Shown here piece by piece: positions 32,679 to 50,966 of a DNA stretch of 64,000 nucleotides (positions within the stretch are counted from its first letter, which is position 1; every line of letters starts with the position of its first letter). Origin of the DNA: Chloroflexota bacterium (GTDB lineage: Bacteria > Chloroflexota > UBA11872 > VXOZ01); the NCBI GenBank assembly GCA_958295775.1, contig CATQHC010000002.1, positions 953,830 to 1,017,829 of the forward strand, read 5' to 3'. The position numbers were made by a program, and so were the translations under genes. Below the pieces are notes generated by a model. The model was given only the letters and a program-made list of their open reading frames with translations. It made no database searches and was not told the origin of the DNA.

Positions 32679-33845
32679 CTACACGGAAACCGTGCGCGCG
32701 AAATCCATCACCTGCTTCACCGGCACACGCGCTTCAGTGGCAACTCGCAGGCAGTCCTCGTATTCCGGACTGCGATTGACCACCTTCCCCCGCCTGAGAG
32801 CGATCTTTCTCCGCACCGTGCCCCACGGCGTTTCCACGCGCTCCACCTGCCGCTCCAGCTTGATGCGCTCGACACGGTGCAGCCGTACGCCAATGGTGGT
32901 CGTCTCTGTGAAGATTATGTCCAGTAGCGGCTCGTCTGCCACGGCTTCCGTCAGCACGCTCAGCACATGCCCGGGTCTGCCTTTTTTCATTTGGATGGGC
33001 GTGAGAGTTACATCCAGCGCTCCGGCCGCGAACAGTTGCGCCGCCACATGCCCGTACAATTGCGGATTCATGTCATCGATGGTGGTCTCGATGACGGTTG
33101 CCAGGCCGTGGGTGTCCGCAGCGGAATCCTCGCCAATGATGACGCGCAATACGTTTGGAATGGCGCTGTCCCGCATGCCGGCGCCGTAACCCACTCGTTG
33201 CGCCTGCATGGCTGGAATGGGCCCGAATTCGTCCGCAAGCTCGCTGAGCAGGAGCGCCCCCGTCGGGGTCAGAGTTTCGCCCATGTCGGCCGTGGCATAG
33301 ATAGGCTTATTCTTCATCAGATCGAGCGTCGCCGGGCCCGGTATCGGCCACCAGCCGTGGCGGGTTTGGATGGGCGCGCTGCCGCCAATGTTCACGGGAG
33401 AGCAGATTATACGTTCAATGCCGAGCGCCTTTACTCCGGCAACCACACCCACCACATCCAGGATTGAGTCCACCGCGCCAACCTCATGGAAGTGCACCTT
33501 CTCGGGCGCGACCCCGTGCATGCGACCTTCGACTTCCGCCAGCCGCACGAAGAGCCGCTTGCTCTTCTCCACGATGTCCGCAGCCAGGCTGCTGGAGTCG
33601 AGCAAGTGTTCAATATCGCTAAGATTGCGCTCAACGGTGTGTTCGTGTGCGTCAATGTCGATGTGCACCTGCAGGGCGCGGAGCAGACCCTTGCGTACCT
33701 CTTCCGTTCCGATTTGGTAGCCGCCCAGTGGAATCTTGGAAAATGTGGCTTTCAGGTCGTCCAATGCCCAGCCGCAATCAACCAAAGCGCCGAGCAGCAT
33801 ATCGCCTGATGCGCCCGCAAAGCAGTCGAAATAGGCGACTCTCAT
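32679..33845 (-). CDS. larC: Nickel pincer cofactor biosynthesis protein LarC
   Basis: LarC inserts nickel into the pyridinium-bisthiocarboxylate mononucleotide cofactor used by lactate racemase and relatives. The start MRVAYFDCFAGASGDMLLGA is the family signature. VHFHEVGAVDSILDVVG, SPVNIGGSAPIQTRHGWWPI and TTIDDMNPQLYGHVAAQLF follow. The 388 residues form one uninterrupted frame, whereas some lactobacilli need a frameshift between larC1 and larC2. AGGAGG 6 bp upstream fixes the start at 33845. Its ATG overlaps the larB stop by 4 bp. Confidence 0.94.
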   Translation of the reverse strand: MRVAYFDCFAGASGDMLLGALVDCGWALDDLKATFSKIPLGGYQIGTEEVRKGLLRALQVHIDIDAHEHTVERNLSDIEHLLDSSSLAADIVEKSKRLFVRLAEVEGRMHGVAPEKVHFHEVGAVDSILDVVGVVAGVKALGIERIICSPVNIGGSAPIQTRHGWWPIPGPATLDLMKNKPIYATADMGETLTPTGALLLSELADEFGPIPAMQAQRVGYGAGMRDSAIPNVLRVIIGEDSAADTHGLATVIETTIDDMNPQLYGHVAAQLFAAGALDVTLTPIQMKKGRPGHVLSVLTEAVADEPLLDIIFTETTTIGVRLHRVERIKLERQVERVETPWGTVRRKIALRRGKVVNRSPEYEDCLRVATEARVPVKQVMDFARTVSV

Positions 33846-34618
33846 TGTGCCTCCTGTGCATTGCCGCTCTCGGCAACGCGGCAAATCAGACCGGCCATGT
33901 AGCCGGCCCCAAAACCATTGTCGATGTTAACTACCGAAAGTCCGGCGGCACAGCTATTGAGCATCGTGAGGAGTGGAGTCAGTCCACCAAGAGAAGCGCC
34001 ATAGCCAACACTCGTCGGGACTGCGATTACGGGGCGGTCGATGAGCCCGGCAAGCACACTCGGCAGCGCGCCTTCCATGCCGGCAACAGCCACGACGGCG
34101 CGGGCCGCCTGCACGGATTCTAGGTTCAGCAAGAGCCGATGCAGTCCCGCCACACCCACGTCCGCCAGGCGATCTACACGGCAACCCATCAACTCCGCCG
34201 TGAGGCTCGCCTCGGCTGCCACCGGCAGATCGGCCGTACCCGCCGCCACCACTGCGACCCGCCCGTGGGCCAAAGCCTGCACGTGACGGCGCACGACGAT
34301 GGCGCGAGCGTCTTCATCGTATTCAGCGGCTGGGATGTGCGCTTGCACCTCTGCGTAGAGCTCAGCCGTCGCGCGTGTCGCAAGGACCGTCTGATCCTGG
34401 GCCAGCAACTCCTTAGCAATGCCAATCACCTGCGCCGGTGTCTTGCCCGGACAGAATATGACCTCCGGAAAGCCAACCCGCAGTTGCCTCTGCGCGTCGA
34501 CCTTGGCAAAGTCCAAGTCCTCGTAAGGGGCCAGGCGCACGCGGCGGACTACCTGCTCTACGTCGATTTGACCTTGCTGCAACTGTGTCAGCAGAGAGCG
34601 TAGCGTATTCGCATCCAT
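33842..34618 (-). CDS. larB: Nickel pincer cofactor biosynthesis protein LarB
   Basis: LarB carboxylates nicotinic acid adenine dinucleotide, the first step of the nickel pincer cofactor. The C-terminal PurE-like domain is clear: VAVVAAGTADLPVAAEASLT, VVAVAGMEGALPSVLAGLID, PVIAVPTSVGYGASLGGLTP and NIDNGFGAGYMAG. The N-terminal part has FPEVIFCPGKTPAQVIGIAK. About 258 residues, normal. The ATG at 34618 is preferred over a TTG seven codons earlier, although neither has a good ribosome site. It is coupled to larC; larE, the sulfur donor, and larA are not in the window. Confidence 0.94.
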   Translation of the reverse strand: MDANTLRSLLTQLQQGQIDVEQVVRRVRLAPYEDLDFAKVDAQRQLRVGFPEVIFCPGKTPAQVIGIAKELLAQDQTVLATRATAELYAEVQAHIPAAEYDEDARAIVVRRHVQALAHGRVAVVAAGTADLPVAAEASLTAELMGCRVDRLADVGVAGLHRLLLNLESVQAARAVVAVAGMEGALPSVLAGLIDRPVIAVPTSVGYGASLGGLTPLLTMLNSCAAGLSVVNIDNGFGAGYMAGLICRVAESGNAQEAQ

Positions 34619-34881
34619 TAGCTGGGAACAGGTCTCCAATATCTGTGATTGCCACTCTGTCGGCTGGCGCGGAGCACCGCATTTCGCCGACCAATGCCAC
34701 TATTGTAGCGCAGGTGGACACGATCTAAGCGTGACAGTATCTCTGTGCCCTTTCTAAGCTGGGCGAGCATGCGTGGCCGGACAGAACGAAGAACGTCTTT
34801 CACCACAAGCAGACGACTGTACACTGTCGCAGATTTCTGCGGACGTGTGTCCGTAGGCCAGGTTCGAGCGGGCCAAGTCTG

Positions 34882-36195
<1,314 letters not shown>

Positions 36196-37062
36196 TTACG
36201 CCACGGTAGATTGTAAACGGGCGGCCCGTATAGTGTTCGCAACGAGCATGGCGTTCGTCACCGGCCCAATACCGCCCGGGACGGGCGTAATCGCACTAGC
36301 CACTTCGCTCACCTCATCGTACTGCACGTCGCCAACCAGACCGCCCGGCGTCACATTGATGCCAATATCCACCACTACGGCGCCGGGCTTCACCATATCC
36401 GGCGTGACAAATTGGGGTCTTCCCATGGCTACCAACAGTATGTCGGCCTGTCTGGTATGTGATGGAAGATCGACCGTGCGGCTGTGCGTGACGGTTACGG
36501 TGGCATCGTGCGCAATCATCAGGGCAGCTAGGGGCCGGCCCGCCACATTGCTGCGGCCGATCAGCACAGCATGCTTGCCGCTCAGTGTGATGTCGTAGTT
36601 CCGCAGCAAGTAGATCACACCTGCGGGCGTATTCGGCACGAACGCCTCCATACCCAGAAACTGGCCCCCCAAGAAGACACGCCCGGCATTCAACGGGTGC
36701 AGGCCGTCGATGTCCTTGCGCGGATCTAGGGTCATCGCAACTAATTCTGGATCCCACTCCGACGGCAGCGGCCAGCTCAGCATGATTCCCGTCACCCGGG
36801 GGTCAACATTGAGGCTGCAAATGCGACCGATAAACTGCTCCCGGTCGCTTGCGGAAAGCGCGTGTTCCTGATATTCCATACCCACACGCCGACAGAGTTT
36901 TTCGATTTGGCCCAGGTAGCTCGCCGACGCCTTGTTCTTCCCGGCACGAACAACTGCCAAAGTCAGAGGATGTCCCAGACGTCTCTGAATGTCCGCGATC
37001 TCGTCTCGATGCCTCCAACTCAATGTACGAGCGATACGACGACCATCAAGAATAAGTGCCAT
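36196..37062 (-). CDS. folD: Methylenetetrahydrofolate dehydrogenase FolD-like, with altered cyclohydrolase residues
   Basis: FolD normally oxidises 5,10-methylene-THF and hydrolyses methenyl-THF. The NADP-binding half is intact: GKHAVLIGRSNVAGRPLAAL, VVVDIGINVTPGGLVGDV and ITPVPGGIGPVTNAMLV. In the active site, Tyr 49 is kept, but the catalytic Lys four residues later (YxxxK) is Ile 53. The Gln of the usual VQLPLP motif is Ser 96 (MLSWPLP). The KDIDGLHP aspartates are conserved. Dehydrogenase activity may remain, whereas the cyclohydrolase is probably lost or changed. A separate FchA-type cyclohydrolase gene lies 113 bp upstream on the same strand, which may compensate. Length, 288 residues, is normal. 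Confidence 0.9.
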   Translation of the reverse strand: MALILDGRRIARTLSWRHRDEIADIQRRLGHPLTLAVVRAGKNKASASYLGQIEKLCRRVGMEYQEHALSASDREQFIGRICSLNVDPRVTGIMLSWPLPSEWDPELVAMTLDPRKDIDGLHPLNAGRVFLGGQFLGMEAFVPNTPAGVIYLLRNYDITLSGKHAVLIGRSNVAGRPLAALMIAHDATVTVTHSRTVDLPSHTRQADILLVAMGRPQFVTPDMVKPGAVVVDIGINVTPGGLVGDVQYDEVSEVASAITPVPGGIGPVTNAMLVANTIRAARLQSTVA

Positions 37063-37175
37063 TCCGCGTCATCCTCTTAAGTACTCTTCGCGTCTGTTCC
37101 AACCTCGCCCTACTTCAACCGGATTGAGTTCCGTTCACTTGGTCAAGCGCCTGTAATCCCCGTCGCACATCCGGC

Positions 37176-37790
37176 CTATTCTCCCAACGCCAAGGCTTCC
37201 TTGCGCACGCTCGCCATTGGCTCGTAGGCGCGTAGCCGCTGCCGCATCACCGCAACCACCGTCTCATCCTTGATGAAGCCCAAGCTCGACTTAATGGTTG
37301 CCACACTTCCCTGCAGGGCAGCCTCCGTCAGCAGCACCGCCATGACGGCATCCGCCAATAAATTAGGATTTCCATGCTCGGCCAACCACAACGCATGGTC
37401 GCTTACGTCAACACAGGCGTCTGCAATAGCAAAAAGCACTTCCGTTGCCTGCACTGACGCCTGCTGGATATGGGCGGAACGTGCCGCACGCTCTTGCGCG
37501 GTAGCGCGCGGCATAGCGAATCCCGCCCCAACTGCGCCGTAAGCATCGATGTCTTTCTGCACCAAGTCTTCCAAGGTGCGCAGAGTTTGACTTAAGTGCC
37601 CCAGGCGTTCCTCAATTTGGGGAGCAATTGCCGCGTACTTCTTCCTGCCCCGCGTGAAGTTGGCCACCATTGCAGCCAAGCCGGCGGCGAGCGCTCCCGC
37701 GAGCGCGGCTACGCTGCCGCCGCCGGGCGTAGGTTCACGCGCGGACAGCGCTTCCAAGTATGAGTGAATGCTCTTATCAGTTATCGTCAC
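37176..37790 (-). CDS. fchA: Cyclodeaminase/cyclohydrolase family protein (FchA-like)
   Basis: A 204-residue helical protein of the formiminotransferase-cyclodeaminase/FchA family. SAREPTPGGGSVAALAGALA near residue 16 is the diagnostic folate-binding signature, followed by AAMVANFTRGRKKY and DAYGAVGAGFAMPRA. Known members are methenyl-THF cyclohydrolases or formimino-THF cyclodeaminases. Lack of a formiminotransferase gene nearby and the position between purN and folD favour the cyclohydrolase role, making 10-formyl-THF for PurN and PurH. It starts 26 bp after the purN stop. Confidence 0.9.
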   Translation of the reverse strand: MTITDKSIHSYLEALSAREPTPGGGSVAALAGALAAGLAAMVANFTRGRKKYAAIAPQIEERLGHLSQTLRTLEDLVQKDIDAYGAVGAGFAMPRATAQERAARSAHIQQASVQATEVLFAIADACVDVSDHALWLAEHGNPNLLADAVMAVLLTEAALQGSVATIKSSLGFIKDETVVAVMRQRLRAYEPMASVRKEALALGE

Positions 37791-37816: not shown

Positions 37817-38476
37817 CTACGCGTCACCCCACCAACGCGACGGGATGGCCCCATCAATTCGTACTCTATCATTCTCAATCTGCACCCTATTCTCGGCAAA
37901 CCACTGCACAACTTGGGGTAGCAGGCGGTGTTCTTGCGCCAAGATGCGGTTCGCCAAAGATTCTACGGTGTCATCCATGAATACGGGCACCGCGCCCTGC
38001 GCGATAATGGGACCTGCGTCCACCTCATCGGTGGCAATGTGCACAGTGCATCCGGCAATCTTCACGCCGGCCTCTAATGCATCCTGTTGCGGTTTCGGGT
38101 TCATGCCGCCGGCAAATGCCGGCAGCAGTGAGGGGTGGATGTTTATGATTCTATTCGGATAGGCCTGGACCCAAGCAGATGAAAGGATTCGGTCGAAGCC
38201 ACCGAGCACAATCAACTCGGCCCGATGCCGTTGCGCGCACGCCAGCATGGCGGCGTGATGCTCCTCCCGCGACCCATACTCCCAACGTACCACCTCATAG
38301 GTTGGAATGCCGGCTGCACGTGCTCTCTCTACCCCTTGCGTACCCCTATGGTTACAGATCACGGCAACAATCTCTGCATCTAGGTGTCCGGCAGCCCTCG
38401 CATTAATTAGCGCTTGCAAGTTGGTGCCGCGCCCTGAGACCAGCATGGCCACCCGCAAGGCATTCTTGTCAGCCAC
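37817..38476 (-). CDS. purN: Phosphoribosylglycinamide formyltransferase
   Basis: PurN formylates GAR with 10-formyl-THF in the third step of IMP synthesis. The start ALRVAMLVSGRGTNLQALIN is typical. The catalytic Asn and His are in IINIHPSLLPAF, and the Asp in ATDEVDAGPIIAQGAVPV. At 219 residues length is normal. It lies 33 bp after purM and just before fchA and folD, the folate enzymes that should supply its formyl donor. It belongs to the long purine run on this strand. Confidence 0.95.
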   Translation of the reverse strand: MADKNALRVAMLVSGRGTNLQALINARAAGHLDAEIVAVICNHRGTQGVERARAAGIPTYEVVRWEYGSREEHHAAMLACAQRHRAELIVLGGFDRILSSAWVQAYPNRIINIHPSLLPAFAGGMNPKPQQDALEAGVKIAGCTVHIATDEVDAGPIIAQGAVPVFMDDTVESLANRILAQEHRLLPQVVQWFAENRVQIENDRVRIDGAIPSRWWGDA

Positions 38477-38509: not shown

Positions 38510-39541
38510 TCACCGATCGATGACCACGCGCGGATCTCCAGCGAATTCTTCCACAACACCAATCCGGCAGAGCTCCGGCTCTAGACGCTGGGCCTCTGCC
38601 GCATCGCTCTCATCAAGCATAACAACGTAGCCGACACCCATGTTGAAGGTGTGGCACATCTCATAGAATTCTACCTGCCCGCGCTCTTGAATGAGCCGGA
38701 AAATCGGCGGCACCGGCCACGATCCCCATTGCAAGCGCACCTGCGTATCTTGCGGCAAGACTCTCGGTATGTTGTCCCAGAGTCCGCCGCCGGTAATGTG
38801 CGCCATTCCCTTTATGTCGAGTTTCGAAAGCAGTCGGTGAATGGGCTGCAAGTAGCTGGTATGGACCGCCATGAGGGCGTCCGCTACCGTCGTCGTGAGA
38901 GGAGGCGCCGGCGCCTGGAGCGCTTCCTCGGCAAAGACCCGGCGCGCCAGCGAATACCCGTTTGTATGCAAGCCGTTGCTGGGAAACGCGAGAACCACGT
39001 CACCCGGCACGATGCGCTCTCCGCTGACAATCTGGGCACGTTCCACCACCCCGACTATCGTGCCGGCAAAGTCGAAATCTTCCTCGGCGTAAAGATCGGG
39101 CATCTCGGCCAATTCGCCGCCAAGCAACGCGCACCCGGCATTCTTGCACGCCAACGCGGCGCCGGAAACGACATCGCGCATCACTTCAGGCACAAGCTTG
39201 CCCATTCCGACATAGTCGAGAAAGAAGAGCGGCCGCGCGCCAAGCGTGAGAATATCGTTGACGCAGTGATTGACGATGTCTTGACCGACCGAATCGTAAC
39301 GCTGTAGCAGCGACGCGAGCTTTACCTTGGTCCCGACACTGTCGGTGCTTGCCACCAGCACCGGTTCGGCAAAGTGCGTGGGAAACTGAAAGAGACCGCC
39401 AAAGCTGCCAATGCCGGTGAGCACTTCCGGTCCATGGGTAGCCTCAACCTGAGGCTTGAAGAGCGCGACAGCCTTGGCGCCTGCGTCAATGTCGACGCCG
39501 GCCTGTTTATACGTAGCGGGAGTGTAACACTCGTCACGCAT
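38510..39541 (-). CDS. purM: Phosphoribosylformylglycinamidine cyclo-ligase
   Basis: PurM closes the imidazole ring to form AIR using ATP. The 343 residues include YKQAGVDIDAGAKAVALFKP, VASTDSVGTKVKLASLLQRY and VNDILTLGARPLFFLDYVG, all family signatures. GGELAEMPDLYAEEDFDFAG and MAHITGGGLWDNIPRVLP follow. It lies between purF and purN; the 240-bp gap to purF holds no gene. Confidence 0.96.
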   Translation of the reverse strand: MRDECYTPATYKQAGVDIDAGAKAVALFKPQVEATHGPEVLTGIGSFGGLFQFPTHFAEPVLVASTDSVGTKVKLASLLQRYDSVGQDIVNHCVNDILTLGARPLFFLDYVGMGKLVPEVMRDVVSGAALACKNAGCALLGGELAEMPDLYAEEDFDFAGTIVGVVERAQIVSGERIVPGDVVLAFPSNGLHTNGYSLARRVFAEEALQAPAPPLTTTVADALMAVHTSYLQPIHRLLSKLDIKGMAHITGGGLWDNIPRVLPQDTQVRLQWGSWPVPPIFRLIQERGQVEFYEMCHTFNMGVGYVVMLDESDAAEAQRLEPELCRIGVVEEFAGDPRVVIDR

Positions 39542-39781
39542 TGACCGAAGACTGCCTGTAGTCGAGGAATGAAGCTGGAATCAGAACTAGGGTAGCTACC
39601 TTGAGCAGCCGTCCAAACTCTCCAAGTCTTGCGCGGTGTTCTACCTTGGGTGGAATGTTAGCGCACGCATCCGAAGAAAGCTCCCGGCATTGCGTTGGGA
39701 GACCTGCAATTGGCGGGGCAAGGACCCTGATCGACCGACTGCGCAACGGTGCTGACTCCGCCTCAACGTCTTCCGTCGCCG

Positions 39782-41236
39782 TCATGACACAGGCGCTCGG
39801 AGTTGCTCGAGGGAAAGTTTATCGAATTCCATCTGCACCGGCACGGGGTAATCACCGTTGAAGCAAGCCAGGCAAAAGTCATCGTATGGCAAGCCAACGG
39901 CCTCTACAATGCCCTCGATGCTCAAGTACCCCAGGCTATCTGCCTGAATCACGGACCCTACGGCCACTTCCGCTTCCTCCCGTGATTGGAAGGCAGACGC
40001 GATGATTTCGCCTCGAGTCGGCATGTCAACACCCAAGAAGCACGGGTGCCGTATCGGCGGCGCGGCAATGCGGACATGCACTTCCACCGCCCCCGCCTGG
40101 CGCAGCATCTTCACGACGGGAAGGGTATTCGTGCCACGCACAATAGAGTCGTCTACTACGACAACACGACGGCCCTCGATCACTTCCGGCATTGTGTTGT
40201 ACTTTAGGTGCACGCCTTCGCGGCGCAACTGGTCGGTAGGCTGAATGAAGGTGCGGTGGATGTAGCGGTTGCGCACCAAGCCGTCGCGCAGCGGCAGTCC
40301 GCTTTCCTCCGCGTAGCCCTGTGCGGCCGCAATCGCGCACTCAGGCACGCCCATTACCAGGTCGGCCCCTGGCGTTGGCCGCTCTCGCGCAAGCTGGCGT
40401 CCCATTTCCCGCCGGGCGTGGTACAGCAATTTATCCTCAATATACGAGTCCGGTCGGGCGAGATACATAAACTCGAACATGCAGACCGCCCGCTTCGTGA
40501 CCGGCTGAATGCGATATGACCGCAGGCCCTCCTCGCCAACCGAGATCAATTCTCCCGGCTCAACTTCACGCACGAGTTCGGCGCCAACGGTATTCAATGC
40601 GCAACTCTCGGAGGCCACTACCCAATAACCGTCAACCGTTCCCAAACAGAGCGGTCTGTTACCCATAGGATCCCGTGCCGCTAACAAGTGGTCGGCCGTT
40701 GCCATGACGAAGCTGTACGAACCCACCAACCGGGGCAGCGTGTGCTGCAGCTTCTCGGGCCACGTGCTACCCGGTGCGAGCGCAATTAGCCACGCCGCAA
40801 TCTCGCTGTCGGTAGAGGACGTTGGGCGAACGCCCAATTCTTCAAGATCATCCCGCAACTGATCGGCATTCGAAAGATTGCCGTTATGCGCCAAAGCAAA
40901 TGGGCCGAGCGGCCCTTCGACGAATATAGGTTGAGAGTTGTCCTCGCTGCTCGAACCCTTAGTGGAGTAGCGCGTATGCCCAATTGCCAGGATGCCGTCC
41001 AAATCTTCCAATATCTCTTCGGAAAAGACATGGGAGACAAGACCCATCTTGCGGTACACCTGCATTTGCTTGCCGTCGGCACTGGCAATGCCGGCACTCT
41101 CTTGCCCGCGATGCTGCAGCGCGTGCAAGCCAAAGTAGGTGAGTTTCGCAACGTCAAGATCGCGGCCGTAGATACCAAAAACACCGCACGCTTCACGCGG
41201 CGAATCAGTCTCGGCGGTAGCTGGTACGTCGTTCAT
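39782..41236 (-). CDS. purF: Amidophosphoribosyltransferase (propeptide, Fe-S type)
   Basis: PurF makes phosphoribosylamine from PRPP and glutamine, the committed step of purine synthesis. The mature N-terminal nucleophile is Cys 17 in SPREACGVFGIYG, so the first 16 residues are a propeptide to be removed. The PRPP loop is VVVVDDSIVRGTNTLPVV. Cysteines in AVCMFEFMYLARPDS, HPCFLGVD and CLACFNGDYP fit the [4Fe-4S] B. subtilis-type enzyme rather than the E. coli type. It is 484 residues long and follows purL by 27 bp. Confidence 0.95.
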   Translation of the reverse strand: MNDVPATAETDSPREACGVFGIYGRDLDVAKLTYFGLHALQHRGQESAGIASADGKQMQVYRKMGLVSHVFSEEILEDLDGILAIGHTRYSTKGSSSEDNSQPIFVEGPLGPFALAHNGNLSNADQLRDDLEELGVRPTSSTDSEIAAWLIALAPGSTWPEKLQHTLPRLVGSYSFVMATADHLLAARDPMGNRPLCLGTVDGYWVVASESCALNTVGAELVREVEPGELISVGEEGLRSYRIQPVTKRAVCMFEFMYLARPDSYIEDKLLYHARREMGRQLARERPTPGADLVMGVPECAIAAAQGYAEESGLPLRDGLVRNRYIHRTFIQPTDQLRREGVHLKYNTMPEVIEGRRVVVVDDSIVRGTNTLPVVKMLRQAGAVEVHVRIAAPPIRHPCFLGVDMPTRGEIIASAFQSREEAEVAVGSVIQADSLGYLSIEGIVEAVGLPYDDFCLACFNGDYPVPVQMEFDKLSLEQLRAPVS

Positions 41237-41263
41237 AGCCTGCCCCCCTCTGATGCGACGCGC

Positions 41264-43489
41264 TCATTGGCCCTCCACAGCCAAGGCCTCGGCCATTCCA
41301 TTCTGCCACGCCTGACGTGCAGATGCCAGCGGCACGCGCACCCGGTCACCGAGAGCCAATGCGCTGCCCTGCACGCGACCTATGATTGCAAACGGCACCC
41401 CGTGCCCATCGGCAACCGCGCGCGCGGCTTCCAGGCCCTTTTCAGGCAGACTGACGACAATTCGCGACTGACTCTCGCCAAACAGCAAGCCGTCCACGCG
41501 CCCCGTGCCGGGCACCTCCACCTCGCACCCAATTCCGCCGGCAATTGCGCTCTCGGCAAGGGCGACAGCGAGGCCCCCGTGGGAACAGTCGTGCGCGCTA
41601 CTGAGCAAGCTCGCGCGAATGAATTGACGGCACGCTGCCTGAACGCTGACTTCCATGTCAAGGTCGATGCGGGGTGTGCGACCTGACACCATACCGTGAA
41701 TTGAAGACAGGTACTCACTGCCGCCGCAATCATCACTCTGGGGGCCGAGCAGGGCGATGACGTCGCCTGCGCGCTTGAAGGCCGAGGTAACGCGCTGCTG
41801 CACGGCATCCAGTTTGCCCACCATGCCTATCATTGGCGTTGGATAGATCGCTTGGCCGCGTGTTTCGTTGTAGAGACTGACATTCCCGCTCACGACCGGG
41901 ACGTTCAGCGCCTCACAGGCTGCGGCCATGCCGCGAATTACCTGCTCCAACTGAAAGTAGACATCAGTCTTTTCCGGATTGCCGAAGTTAAGGCAATTCG
42001 TCAGGGCGAGCGGCTCTGCACCCACACAAGACAGGTTTCGCGCCGCCTCCGCAACGGCGATCGCGCCGCCCCTGTAGGGGTCTAGGTAGCAGTACTGGCC
42101 GTTGCCGTCAATCGTGACGCCAAGGCCCGACGATGTCCCTTTGATTCGCAATACGGCCGCGTCGCCGCCCGGTCCCTCTACCGTGTTGACCTGAACGCTA
42201 TAGTCGTATTGCTGAAAGACGCTCTCCTTGCTCGCAATATTGGGGCTGGCGAGCAGTTTGAGCAACGCTTCATTGTAGTCCTGCGGCTCCGGCAGCGAAC
42301 TCAGTGCGAAGCTGTGCGCTTCCTGCAAATAGGCCGGCGCAGTCCCCTCTCGCACATAGGTCGGCGCGTCTGCAAGCTGATGGGCGGGAATCTCCGCGAC
42401 AATCTCGGCACCGCTGCGCACCCGCACCATGCCGTCGGCAGTGACGCTGCCGATTACGGTGGAGTGCAGCCCCCAGCGCGAGAAGATAGCCTCTACTTCT
42501 GCCTCAGCGCCGCGACGCACAATTGCGAGCATGCGCTCCTGGCTCTCGCTCAGCATGATCTCATAGGGGGTCATACCCTCTTCCCGGCAGGGGACGCGGC
42601 TTACGTCAATCTCAACGCCGCTCTCCCCCTTGTGCGCGGCTTCCACAGACGAGCTCGTCAAGCCGGCCGCGCCCAGGTCCTGCAAGCCCACGAGATAGTC
42701 GGTTTCTCCCAACTCAAGACACGCCTCGATGAGCAGCTTCTCCATGAAGGGATCGCCCACCTGCACCACGCCGCGGTGGGATAGTTCGGGGTCATCCAGG
42801 GAAGCGAAAGAGGCGCCGTGTATGCCGTCGCGGCCGGTCGCCGCCCCAACCAGCATCAAGGTATTGCCTGCGCCCCGCGCACGGGCGCGGATAAGCTTCT
42901 CTTGGCGGATTATGCCGACGCACATCGCATTGACAAGGGGATTGCCGGCATAGCTTGACGAAAAAACCACCTCGCCGCCGACGTCCGGTATGCCCACACA
43001 ATTGCCGTAGTGGCTAATGCCGCCGACCACGCCATTGAAGAGGTAGCGGTTGCGCGCGTCGTCCAGAGGTCCGAAGCGCAACGAATTGAGCAGTGCAATG
43101 GGACGCGCACCCATGGTGAAGATGTCCCGCACGATGCCGCCAACGCCGGTCGCTGCGCCTTGAAACGGCTCTACGGCGCTGGGATGATTGTGGCTCTCGA
43201 CCTTGAAGACCACGGCGAGACCGTTGCCTATGTCAACCGCTCCGGCATTTTCCTCGCCGGCGCCGATCAAGACGTGCGCGCCCGCGGTAGGGAGCAATTC
43301 TAAGAGCGGTCGCGAATTCTTGTAACCGCAGTGCTCACTCCACATAGCGCCGAACATGCCGAGTTCGACGCGATTTGGGGGCCGCCCCAACTGCGCGCAA
43401 ACGCGATTATATTCATCGCGAGTGAGCGAGACTTCACGCAGCTCAGCATCAGTTACGGCTGCATTTGTTTGCGGCACACTAGCCCTCAC
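41264..43489 (-). CDS. purL: Phosphoribosylformylglycinamidine synthase subunit PurL (small type)
   Basis: PurL uses ATP and ammonia from PurQ to convert FGAR to FGAM. At 741 residues it is the small form that needs PurS and PurQ, both present upstream. NRVELGMFGAMWSEHCGYKN is the start signature. ESHNHPSAVEPFQGAATGVG and QDLGAAGLTSSSVEAAHKGE are the ATP-binding motifs, and SAHDCSHGGLAVALAESAIA lies near the end. The start is GTG at 43489, with a weak ribosome site. The gap of 120 bp to purQ shows no gene. Confidence 0.96.
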   Translation of the reverse strand: MRASVPQTNAAVTDAELREVSLTRDEYNRVCAQLGRPPNRVELGMFGAMWSEHCGYKNSRPLLELLPTAGAHVLIGAGEENAGAVDIGNGLAVVFKVESHNHPSAVEPFQGAATGVGGIVRDIFTMGARPIALLNSLRFGPLDDARNRYLFNGVVGGISHYGNCVGIPDVGGEVVFSSSYAGNPLVNAMCVGIIRQEKLIRARARGAGNTLMLVGAATGRDGIHGASFASLDDPELSHRGVVQVGDPFMEKLLIEACLELGETDYLVGLQDLGAAGLTSSSVEAAHKGESGVEIDVSRVPCREEGMTPYEIMLSESQERMLAIVRRGAEAEVEAIFSRWGLHSTVIGSVTADGMVRVRSGAEIVAEIPAHQLADAPTYVREGTAPAYLQEAHSFALSSLPEPQDYNEALLKLLASPNIASKESVFQQYDYSVQVNTVEGPGGDAAVLRIKGTSSGLGVTIDGNGQYCYLDPYRGGAIAVAEAARNLSCVGAEPLALTNCLNFGNPEKTDVYFQLEQVIRGMAAACEALNVPVVSGNVSLYNETRGQAIYPTPMIGMVGKLDAVQQRVTSAFKRAGDVIALLGPQSDDCGGSEYLSSIHGMVSGRTPRIDLDMEVSVQAACRQFIRASLLSSAHDCSHGGLAVALAESAIAGGIGCEVEVPGTGRVDGLLFGESQSRIVVSLPEKGLEAARAVADGHGVPFAIIGRVQGSALALGDRVRVPLASARQAWQNGMAEALAVEGQ

Positions 43490-43609
43490 TTATGCAATCC
43501 CAGTGCAGTCCAGGTCTTAGGCCCCGGCAATTGTGTCCGAGGCGGCAAGTCCGGCAAGGGGTACGCTCGCTCGGTGAGAGCCGATCACTGGCAGGGTGCA
43601 TCGAGGAGT

Positions 43610-44317
43610 TCACACGCGCACTGGTTCGGCTTCAAGCACGGACGCAAGCGCCCGCCACACCCCCAAGCCGTCCACGCCGCCCAATTCCGGCTCGGCGCAC
43701 CGCTCCGGATGCGGCATCAAGCCGAATACGTTGCCGGCTTCATTGCACACCCCCGCGATATTGTCCACGGAACCGTTGGGGTTCGCAGCCGGTGTTGTGT
43801 CACCATGCTCATCGCAGTAGCGCAGGACGATCTGGCCGTGGTCGTGCATGCGGTTGAGTTCCTCCGGACCAGCCACAAAGTTGCCGTCTCCGTGGGCAAT
43901 CGGCATGCGCAACACCTGGCCGTGGTCGTAGCCGGCCATGAACGGGGACAACGTGCTCTCTACCCGCAGGTGCGCCCACCTGCAGCGGAATTCGAGGGCG
44001 CTGTTCTTGAGCAGCGCGCCGGGCAGCAGCCCGGCTTCAGTAAGGATTTGAAAGCCGTTGCAAATGCCCAGCACCAGCCCACCGGCATCGGCGAATTTGA
44101 TTACGGCGCCCATTACGGGAGAAAAACGCGCGATCGATCCCGAACGCAGATAGTCTCCGTACGAGAAACCACCCGGCAGCACGAGCGCGTCGTAGCCTGA
44201 GACGCTGTGCTCCTGATGCCAAATGAACGCTGCCTGCTGCTGGAGCACTGTGCGGGCCACATGGAGACAGTCGTAATCGCAATTGGAACCTGGGAACTGC
44301 ACAATGCCAATCTTCAC
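43610..44317 (-). CDS. purQ: Phosphoribosylformylglycinamidine synthase subunit PurQ (glutaminase)
   Basis: PurQ releases ammonia from glutamine for PurL. It is a class I glutamine amidotransferase of 235 residues. The nucleophile is Cys in LVLGICNGFQILTEAG, and the His-Glu pair is in FGLMPHPERCAEPELGG. The start KIGIVQFPGSNCDYDCLHVA and VLPGGFSYGDYLRSGSIAR are PurQ signatures. Its ATG overlaps the purS stop by 4 bp, so the subunits are translationally coupled. Confidence 0.96.
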   Translation of the reverse strand: MKIGIVQFPGSNCDYDCLHVARTVLQQQAAFIWHQEHSVSGYDALVLPGGFSYGDYLRSGSIARFSPVMGAVIKFADAGGLVLGICNGFQILTEAGLLPGALLKNSALEFRCRWAHLRVESTLSPFMAGYDHGQVLRMPIAHGDGNFVAGPEELNRMHDHGQIVLRYCDEHGDTTPAANPNGSVDNIAGVCNEAGNVFGLMPHPERCAEPELGGVDGLGVWRALASVLEAEPVRV

Positions 44318-50207: not shown

Positions 50208-50966
50208 ATGGCTGTTTCTAAGGCTGACATTCGCTTGGGGCTCCAGGATATCGGAGTAGCGCCAAGCGACGCGCTTCTCGTCCATAGTTCGCTGCGGAGC
50301 TTTGGGTACGTCCACGGCGGCGCCGACGCGGTCATCGACGCGCTGCGAGAAGCAGTGGGAGACCAGGGGACCGTGCTCGTTCCCACGCTCACGTTTTCAA
50401 TCCTCAAGGAGGAACCGTACCGATTCTCCGCCACTCAAACCCGGTCCACAACCGGGCGCATAACCGAGGTGTTTCGCCACCGCCCGCAGGCGCGCCGCAG
50501 CCTCCACCCCGTCTCATCAGCCGCGGCCATCGGACCCAAGGCGACCTACCTCACTGCCGATCATCTGGACACACCCTGCGGACCGGGTTCTCCGTACTAC
50601 CGAATCTATGAGCTCGGCGGCAAGGTCGTTTTCTTTGGGGCAGCGCTAGGTTCGAATTCGCTCTTCCATTGCGCCGAGGAGATCGTCTCTCCCAGCTATC
50701 TGGGGTATGCAAGAATCGAAAACGCCATCGTGGAGGACATGAGAGGCCGCGAGACCACTTTCACTGCCCGCCGGTACGACTGTTTCGACCGTGGCGTCAT
50801 CCGCTACCTCGGCAATATGGAACCGGTGTTCAATGCCCGCAGAATAATGCGGCAAACGAAGATCGGGGAGAGCAGGACGATTGTCATTGACGCGCAAGAA
50901 AACGTGGGGGTCTCGTGCGAAGTCCTGAGAATGGACCCGGACTACATCCTAAAGCCGCTGTCATAG
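50208..50966 (+). CDS. AAC(3)-type aminoglycoside N-acetyltransferase family protein
   Basis: A 252-residue acetyl-CoA-dependent transferase of the antibiotic_NAT fold. The signatures are LLVHSSLRSFGYVHGGADAV, GTVLVPTLTFSIL, SLHPVSSAAAIGPKA with the conserved His, and PCGPGSPYYRIYELGGKVVF followed by FGAALGSNSLFHCAEE. Chromosomal members such as YokD often act on unknown amines, so resistance to aminoglycosides should not be assumed. It is a single gene; the nrdR regulatory region follows. Confidence 0.87.
   Translation: MAVSKADIRLGLQDIGVAPSDALLVHSSLRSFGYVHGGADAVIDALREAVGDQGTVLVPTLTFSILKEEPYRFSATQTRSTTGRITEVFRHRPQARRSLHPVSSAAAIGPKATYLTADHLDTPCGPGSPYYRIYELGGKVVFFGAALGSNSLFHCAEEIVSPSYLGYARIENAIVEDMRGRETTFTARRYDCFDRGVIRYLGNMEPVFNARRIMRQTKIGESRTIVIDAQENVGVSCEVLRMDPDYILKPLS

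Follow-up and report, generated by a model that had tools for sequence, protein, structure and literature searches.

The window analysed here is a 64,000-nucleotide stretch of DNA from a Chloroflexota bacterium. It carries a minus-strand run of purine genes adjoined by two folate genes and an enolase gene, as follows.

34882..36171, minus strand: eno (enolase), assigned with Pfam; 24 bp downstream of folD and in the same orientation
36196..37062, minus strand: folD, a FolD-family protein of 288 aa and predicted monofunctional 5,10-methylene-THF dehydrogenase
37176..37790, minus strand: fchA, an FTCD_C-family protein of 204 aa and predicted methenyl-THF cyclohydrolase; GTG start with AGGAGG ahead of it
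37817..38476, minus strand: purN-like GAR formyltransferase (Formyl_trans_N, PF00551, E 5.1e-56), 26 bp upstream of fchA
38510..44317, minus strand: purM, purF, purL and purQ, upstream of purN; assigned by reading the ORF translations, with no HMM

The gene directly upstream of folD had been described as fchA-type and the pair as lying in an operon with purN. The genes are as described: the open reading frame at 37176-37790 (minus) belongs to the FTCD_C/FchA family, the purN-like frame adjoins it, and the order purN-fchA-folD-eno is kept in 6/6 genomes of the genus. The four genes are presumably co-transcribed, and the purN product is a consumer of 10-formyl-THF. Past eno and co-directional with it, larC-like (Ni_insertion) and larB-like (AIRC domain) genes at 32679-34639 (minus) suggest a nickel-pincer cofactor pathway. 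Elsewhere in the window, 50208-50966 (plus) encodes an aminoglycoside 3-N-acetyltransferase family protein (PF02522, E 7.8e-51).

The FolD protein meets the Pfam cut-offs for both halves of the family (THF_DHG_CYH, PF00763, E 9.6e-23; THF_DHG_CYH_C, PF02882, E 7e-61), and every NCBIfam match shown for it is labelled bifunctional. Identity to solved FolDs is roughly 35-43%, and an AlphaFold2 model (pLDDT 87, from a ten-row alignment) matches them in Foldseek with E about 1e-33 and TM about 0.9. With the bifunctional enzymes of E. coli (1B0A) and human (MTHFD1, 1A4I) it has in common the fold, the active-site Tyr and Asp, the glycine loop and the NADP half, whereas Lys is replaced by Ile and Gln by Ser. 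Residues were read from an alignment in which the references were one Histophilus FolD and, from prophage-edge contigs, FolDs with the canonical SQIYVASKRKACEEVGF block; the prophage-edge sequences are mostly host folD genes picked up in a viral scan and served only as alignment rows. The sites concerned are these.

36916..36918, minus strand: codon TAC, Tyr49, the substrate-stacking Tyr, retained
36904..36906, minus strand: codon ATC, Ile53, at the catalytic-Lys site (E. coli K54, human K56)
36775..36777, minus strand: codon AGC, Ser96, at the Gln site of VQLPLP (E. coli Q98)
36706..36714, minus strand: codons of D117-I118-D119, within the retained KDIDG pterin-binding motif

The alignment has no gaps across the YxxxK helix region and the helix itself is intact, which bears out the original prediction that Tyr 49 is kept while Ile 53 stands at the Lys site and Ser 96 at the Gln site. 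Two residues expected of a bifunctional FolD, the Lys of YxxxK and the Gln of VQLPLP, are therefore missing. The NADP half and KDIDG had been called intact, and so they are: KDIDG aligns on the KDVDG of the reference FolDs, and the PVPGGIGP loop is likewise preserved.

In bifunctional FolD, Lys and Gln support hydride transfer, and Lys may move a proton in methenyl-THF hydrolysis (PMC3368264). Cyclohydrolase activity is undetectable in the E. coli K54N mutant and falls to about 1% in Q98H; methenyl-THF can also hydrolyse spontaneously (PMC5688156). The K54N result agrees with the earlier statement that mutation of this lysine abolishes cyclohydrolase activity. The same changes also lower the E. 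coli dehydrogenase, to about 19% in K54N and about 8% in Q98H (PMC5688156), which counts against a purely dehydrogenase role for the window FolD; competence in that reaction would have to come from compensating changes.

The neighbouring protein carries the FTCD_C domain (PF04961, E 6.1e-50). Its closest PDB match is 7vg4 (E 5.5e-31), annotated as a methenyltetrahydrofolate cyclohydrolase, which we take to be the Methylobacterium enzyme. It retains PxPGGG, D80, R104 and D147, positions that vary little or not at all among 103 FchA-like proteins encoded beside a FolD. It misses the NCBIfam FchA equivalog cut-off (145.9 vs 275 bits), so its identity as a cyclohydrolase rests on family, context and the absence of a formiminotransferase, and we regard it as a member of the FTCD_C/FchA family that probably works like FchA rather than as a certified equivalog. 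The formiminotransferase domain PF02971 was absent from 41/41 genomes of the class, with a positive Thermotoga control. A formimino-THF cyclodeaminase of histidine degradation, considered as another identity for the FTCD_C protein of the class, was rejected as unlikely on this ground. In families f10 and f41 of the phylum the FTCD_C domain lies in a frame of more than 480 aa and is likely to belong to just such a histidine-pathway cyclodeaminase.

A second canonical folD elsewhere in the genome had been named in advance as a finding that would overturn the prediction. The assembly (3.42 Mb, 95.3% complete) has a single PF00763 match and a single FTCD_C protein, so that a FolD without the cyclohydrolase Lys is accompanied by a separate FchA. 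The pattern extends through the class. FolD was found in 35 of its 41 genomes, and the Lys site is Ile, Val or Leu in all 35; since Lys is kept in other clades of the phylum, Ile53 is not a chance substitution. An FTCD_C protein is present in 34/35 of these genomes, the exception (G035) being 77% complete and having Fhs. The Gln site is likewise changed, to Ser, Gly, Ala, Leu, Phe or Pro, in families f1-f3 of the class, while most members of f4 and f5 keep Gln without Lys. Five MAGs of genus g3 (G012, G013, G014, G021 and G022) are without both FolD and FchA. Members of this genus that have the genes hold them as an fchA-folD-fhs cluster, and in G013 and G014 just part of fhs remains, located in G014 where a contig ends; for these two the pattern points to a cluster missed in the assembly rather than lost.

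Across the phylum, the FolD residues of 219 genomes were read; 80 have a Lys-bearing FolD and 139 only a Lys-less one. No Lys-bearing genome has an adjacent fchA (0/80); 48 of the 80 have no FTCD_C, and in 19 its frame is as long as is usual for fused FTCD. Among Lys-less-only genomes FTCD_C is found in 130/139 and adjoins folD in 105, with fchA upstream in 104 of those 105. At the level of families, which are not independent samples, 31/44 of those without Lys and 0/30 of those with it show adjacency. Gln is retained by 81/82 FolDs that have Lys and by 94/156 that do not, as expected if the main constraint on it is to support the Lys. Lys-less homologues lacking any fchA, which would have told against the prediction, were looked for and amount to 9 of the 139 genomes, seven of them incomplete MAGs and two from family f45 (see below). 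The presumed FolD/FchA split is the rule across much of the phylum.

In a tree of FolD proteins, nearly all Lys-less sequences fall in one clade (support 0.967), deeper branches being weakly supported, and a second Lys loss lies in f28/f44. Lys thus appears to have been lost essentially once, and once more in a tandem Lys-less/Lys-plus pair. One Lys-bearing FolD (L078, from genome G154, f49) sits within the Lys-less clade; it has RDVDA for KDVDG and a Glu in place of the Gln, and represents either a regain of Lys or a long branch placed wrongly. Annotation still treats Lys-less FolDs as bifunctional, and the Lys-site residue together with fchA offers an easy criterion by which folate maps can be corrected for a large part of the phylum. 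The clades with and without Lys separate cleanly and so also provide a natural experiment on what holds two reactions on one active site.

We consider it very probable that the window FolD is a monofunctional NADP-dependent dehydrogenase and the adjacent FchA a stand-alone cyclohydrolase, the pair doing the job of a bifunctional FolD. FolD would carry out only the NADP-dependent oxidation of 5,10-methylene-THF; the lost Lys would be the driver of methenyl-THF hydrolysis, its partner Gln having gone too in the subgroup to which this FolD belongs, and FchA would catalyse the second step, as methenyl-THF cyclohydrolase, next to purN. The Lys loss would be old and inherited, and we propose that the inactive cyclohydrolase half of FolD is the reason why fchA has been kept. 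The original prediction that the two reactions are split between neighbours is supported by the residues, the single-copy FolD, the adjacency and the lineage-wide co-occurrence, the activities themselves being deduced from sequence.

The direction of flux is a separate matter. Fhs is encoded in the same genome, on contig 8 and away from fchA-folD, as well as in most f1-f3 genomes; it is a second possible source of 10-formyl-THF, and the pair may therefore run in either direction. The pair could be mainly reductive, as in acetogens, with Fhs converting formate to 10-formyl-THF, FchA forming methenyl-THF and FolD methylene-THF. The distribution of Fhs and the single fchA, folD and fhs cluster of g3 speak for this reading, which does not conflict with the split of activities and alters only the flux. 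The window pair, however, lies in a purine run beside purN and apart from fhs, a neighbourhood that favours synthesis of 10-formyl-THF, and seven f5 genomes keep a Lys-less FolD and FchA without Fhs, so that the pair can serve alone. A mainly reductive role seems to us rather unlikely for these reasons.

That FolD is still bifunctional, another residue standing in for Lys and FchA serving some other purpose (as a formimino-THF cyclodeaminase or a spare copy, for example), is highly improbable. The change of Lys has been tolerated over long times in FolD lineages, and a lysine, K55, does lie two residues past Ile53 in the window protein; that site, however, is Asn, Arg or other residues in the genus and class, and no column of the Lys-less FolDs has a basic residue that is both new and strongly conserved. 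Other helix lysines were rejected as substitutes because they are not conserved either. Continued bifunctionality would also leave the tight co-occurrence with fchA unexplained, and formiminotransferase is missing from the class. Slightly less credible still is a degenerate FolD that does little of either reaction, 10-formyl-THF coming from Fhs: Lys and Gln are both gone, each single change lowers the E. coli dehydrogenase and Fhs is present, but the NADP half, Tyr49, KDIDG and the PGGIGP loop are conserved in the genus and largely in the class, the single-copy gene is kept together with fchA, and families without Fhs keep FolD.

The preferred reading, a dehydrogenase-only FolD beside a cyclohydrolase, has parallels. 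Aluri, Sah, Miryala and Varshney (doi 10.1099/mic.0.000209) reportedly found in 2016 that the FolD of Clostridium perfringens is a dehydrogenase only, FchA being the cyclohydrolase and Fhs also present. The likeness lies in the split of the two activities in the presence of Fhs; C. perfringens differs in being a Firmicute, and in the window the neighbours of the pair are purN and eno, not fhs. In Methylorubrum/Methylobacterium, dehydrogenase and cyclohydrolase likewise reside on separate proteins, MtdA and Fch, although MtdA is a separate dehydrogenase and not a FolD that has lost Lys. Yeast MTD1 is a dehydrogenase-only, NAD-dependent member of the fold, and its structure (1EDZ) is distantly similar to the window FolD (E 8.9e-10). 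A passage of PMC7219735 cites Aluri et al. 2016 (C. perfringens FolD/FchA/Fhs) for organisms with a separate FchA. Clusters of fchA-folD(-fhs) occur in acetogens and syntrophs such as T. acetatoxydans (PMC3584212) and C. autoethanogenum (PMC9618320); fchA adjoins folD there too, and fhs joins them as in g3, but their context is energy metabolism, whereas that of the window is purine genes. Separate FolD and FchA activities had thus already been reported, for C. perfringens; what is new is the breadth, the phylum-wide table of residue against fchA and a possible fusion.

The fusion concerns f45, the one real exception among the nine Lys-less genomes without FTCD_C. The other seven (G035, G070, G228, G262, G268, G292 and G190) are 74-89% complete, and four of them, G070, G262, G268 and G292, yielded no FolD other than a second paralogue, the folD-fchA locus appearing to be missing from the assembly. 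A search of the order to which f45 belongs brought its genomes with the protein to 16. FTCD_C was undetected in the sampled members and Fhs is present in 1/16. Their FolDs (L237-L252; for example L155:190-1450, minus, and G167:C59:13392-14648) are Lys-less and divergent, and those complete at the C-terminus have a conserved extension of ~145 aa resembling the start of FchA (LLEAVARLLSPRDPAGGAAAAAITGALAAALDG). In hhalign the extension matches FchA with a probability of 92.5 (pairwise E 4.9e-7); the score drops steeply on column shuffling or reversal, whereas block shuffles can reach that of the real sequence, which means that local motifs carry the match. The Pfam match to the FTCD_C family has an E of only 1.3. 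The similarity is suggestive only, and the f45 protein is possibly a FolD-FchA fusion; if so, it would be a re-made bifunctional enzyme with a new architecture. More broadly, and tentatively, an old loss of the FolD cyclohydrolase in the phylum may have been met by at least three supplies: an adjacent or separate FchA, a tandem Lys-bearing FolD (f28, f44) and the FolD-FchA-like fusion of f45.

Additional FolD copies were seen in several families. The tandem FolDs of f44 and f28 (L162:934-2793 and L169:1011-2828) comprise one with Lys and one without, in genomes with Fhs and no FTCD_C. Members of f14, f21, f36 and f39 (L106, L126, L125, L121, L108, L131, L144, L143 and L100) have a second FolD without Lys and Gln; it shows a motif like GVVLLLPLP and is not beside fchA, the first FolD, elsewhere, being the one that adjoins it.
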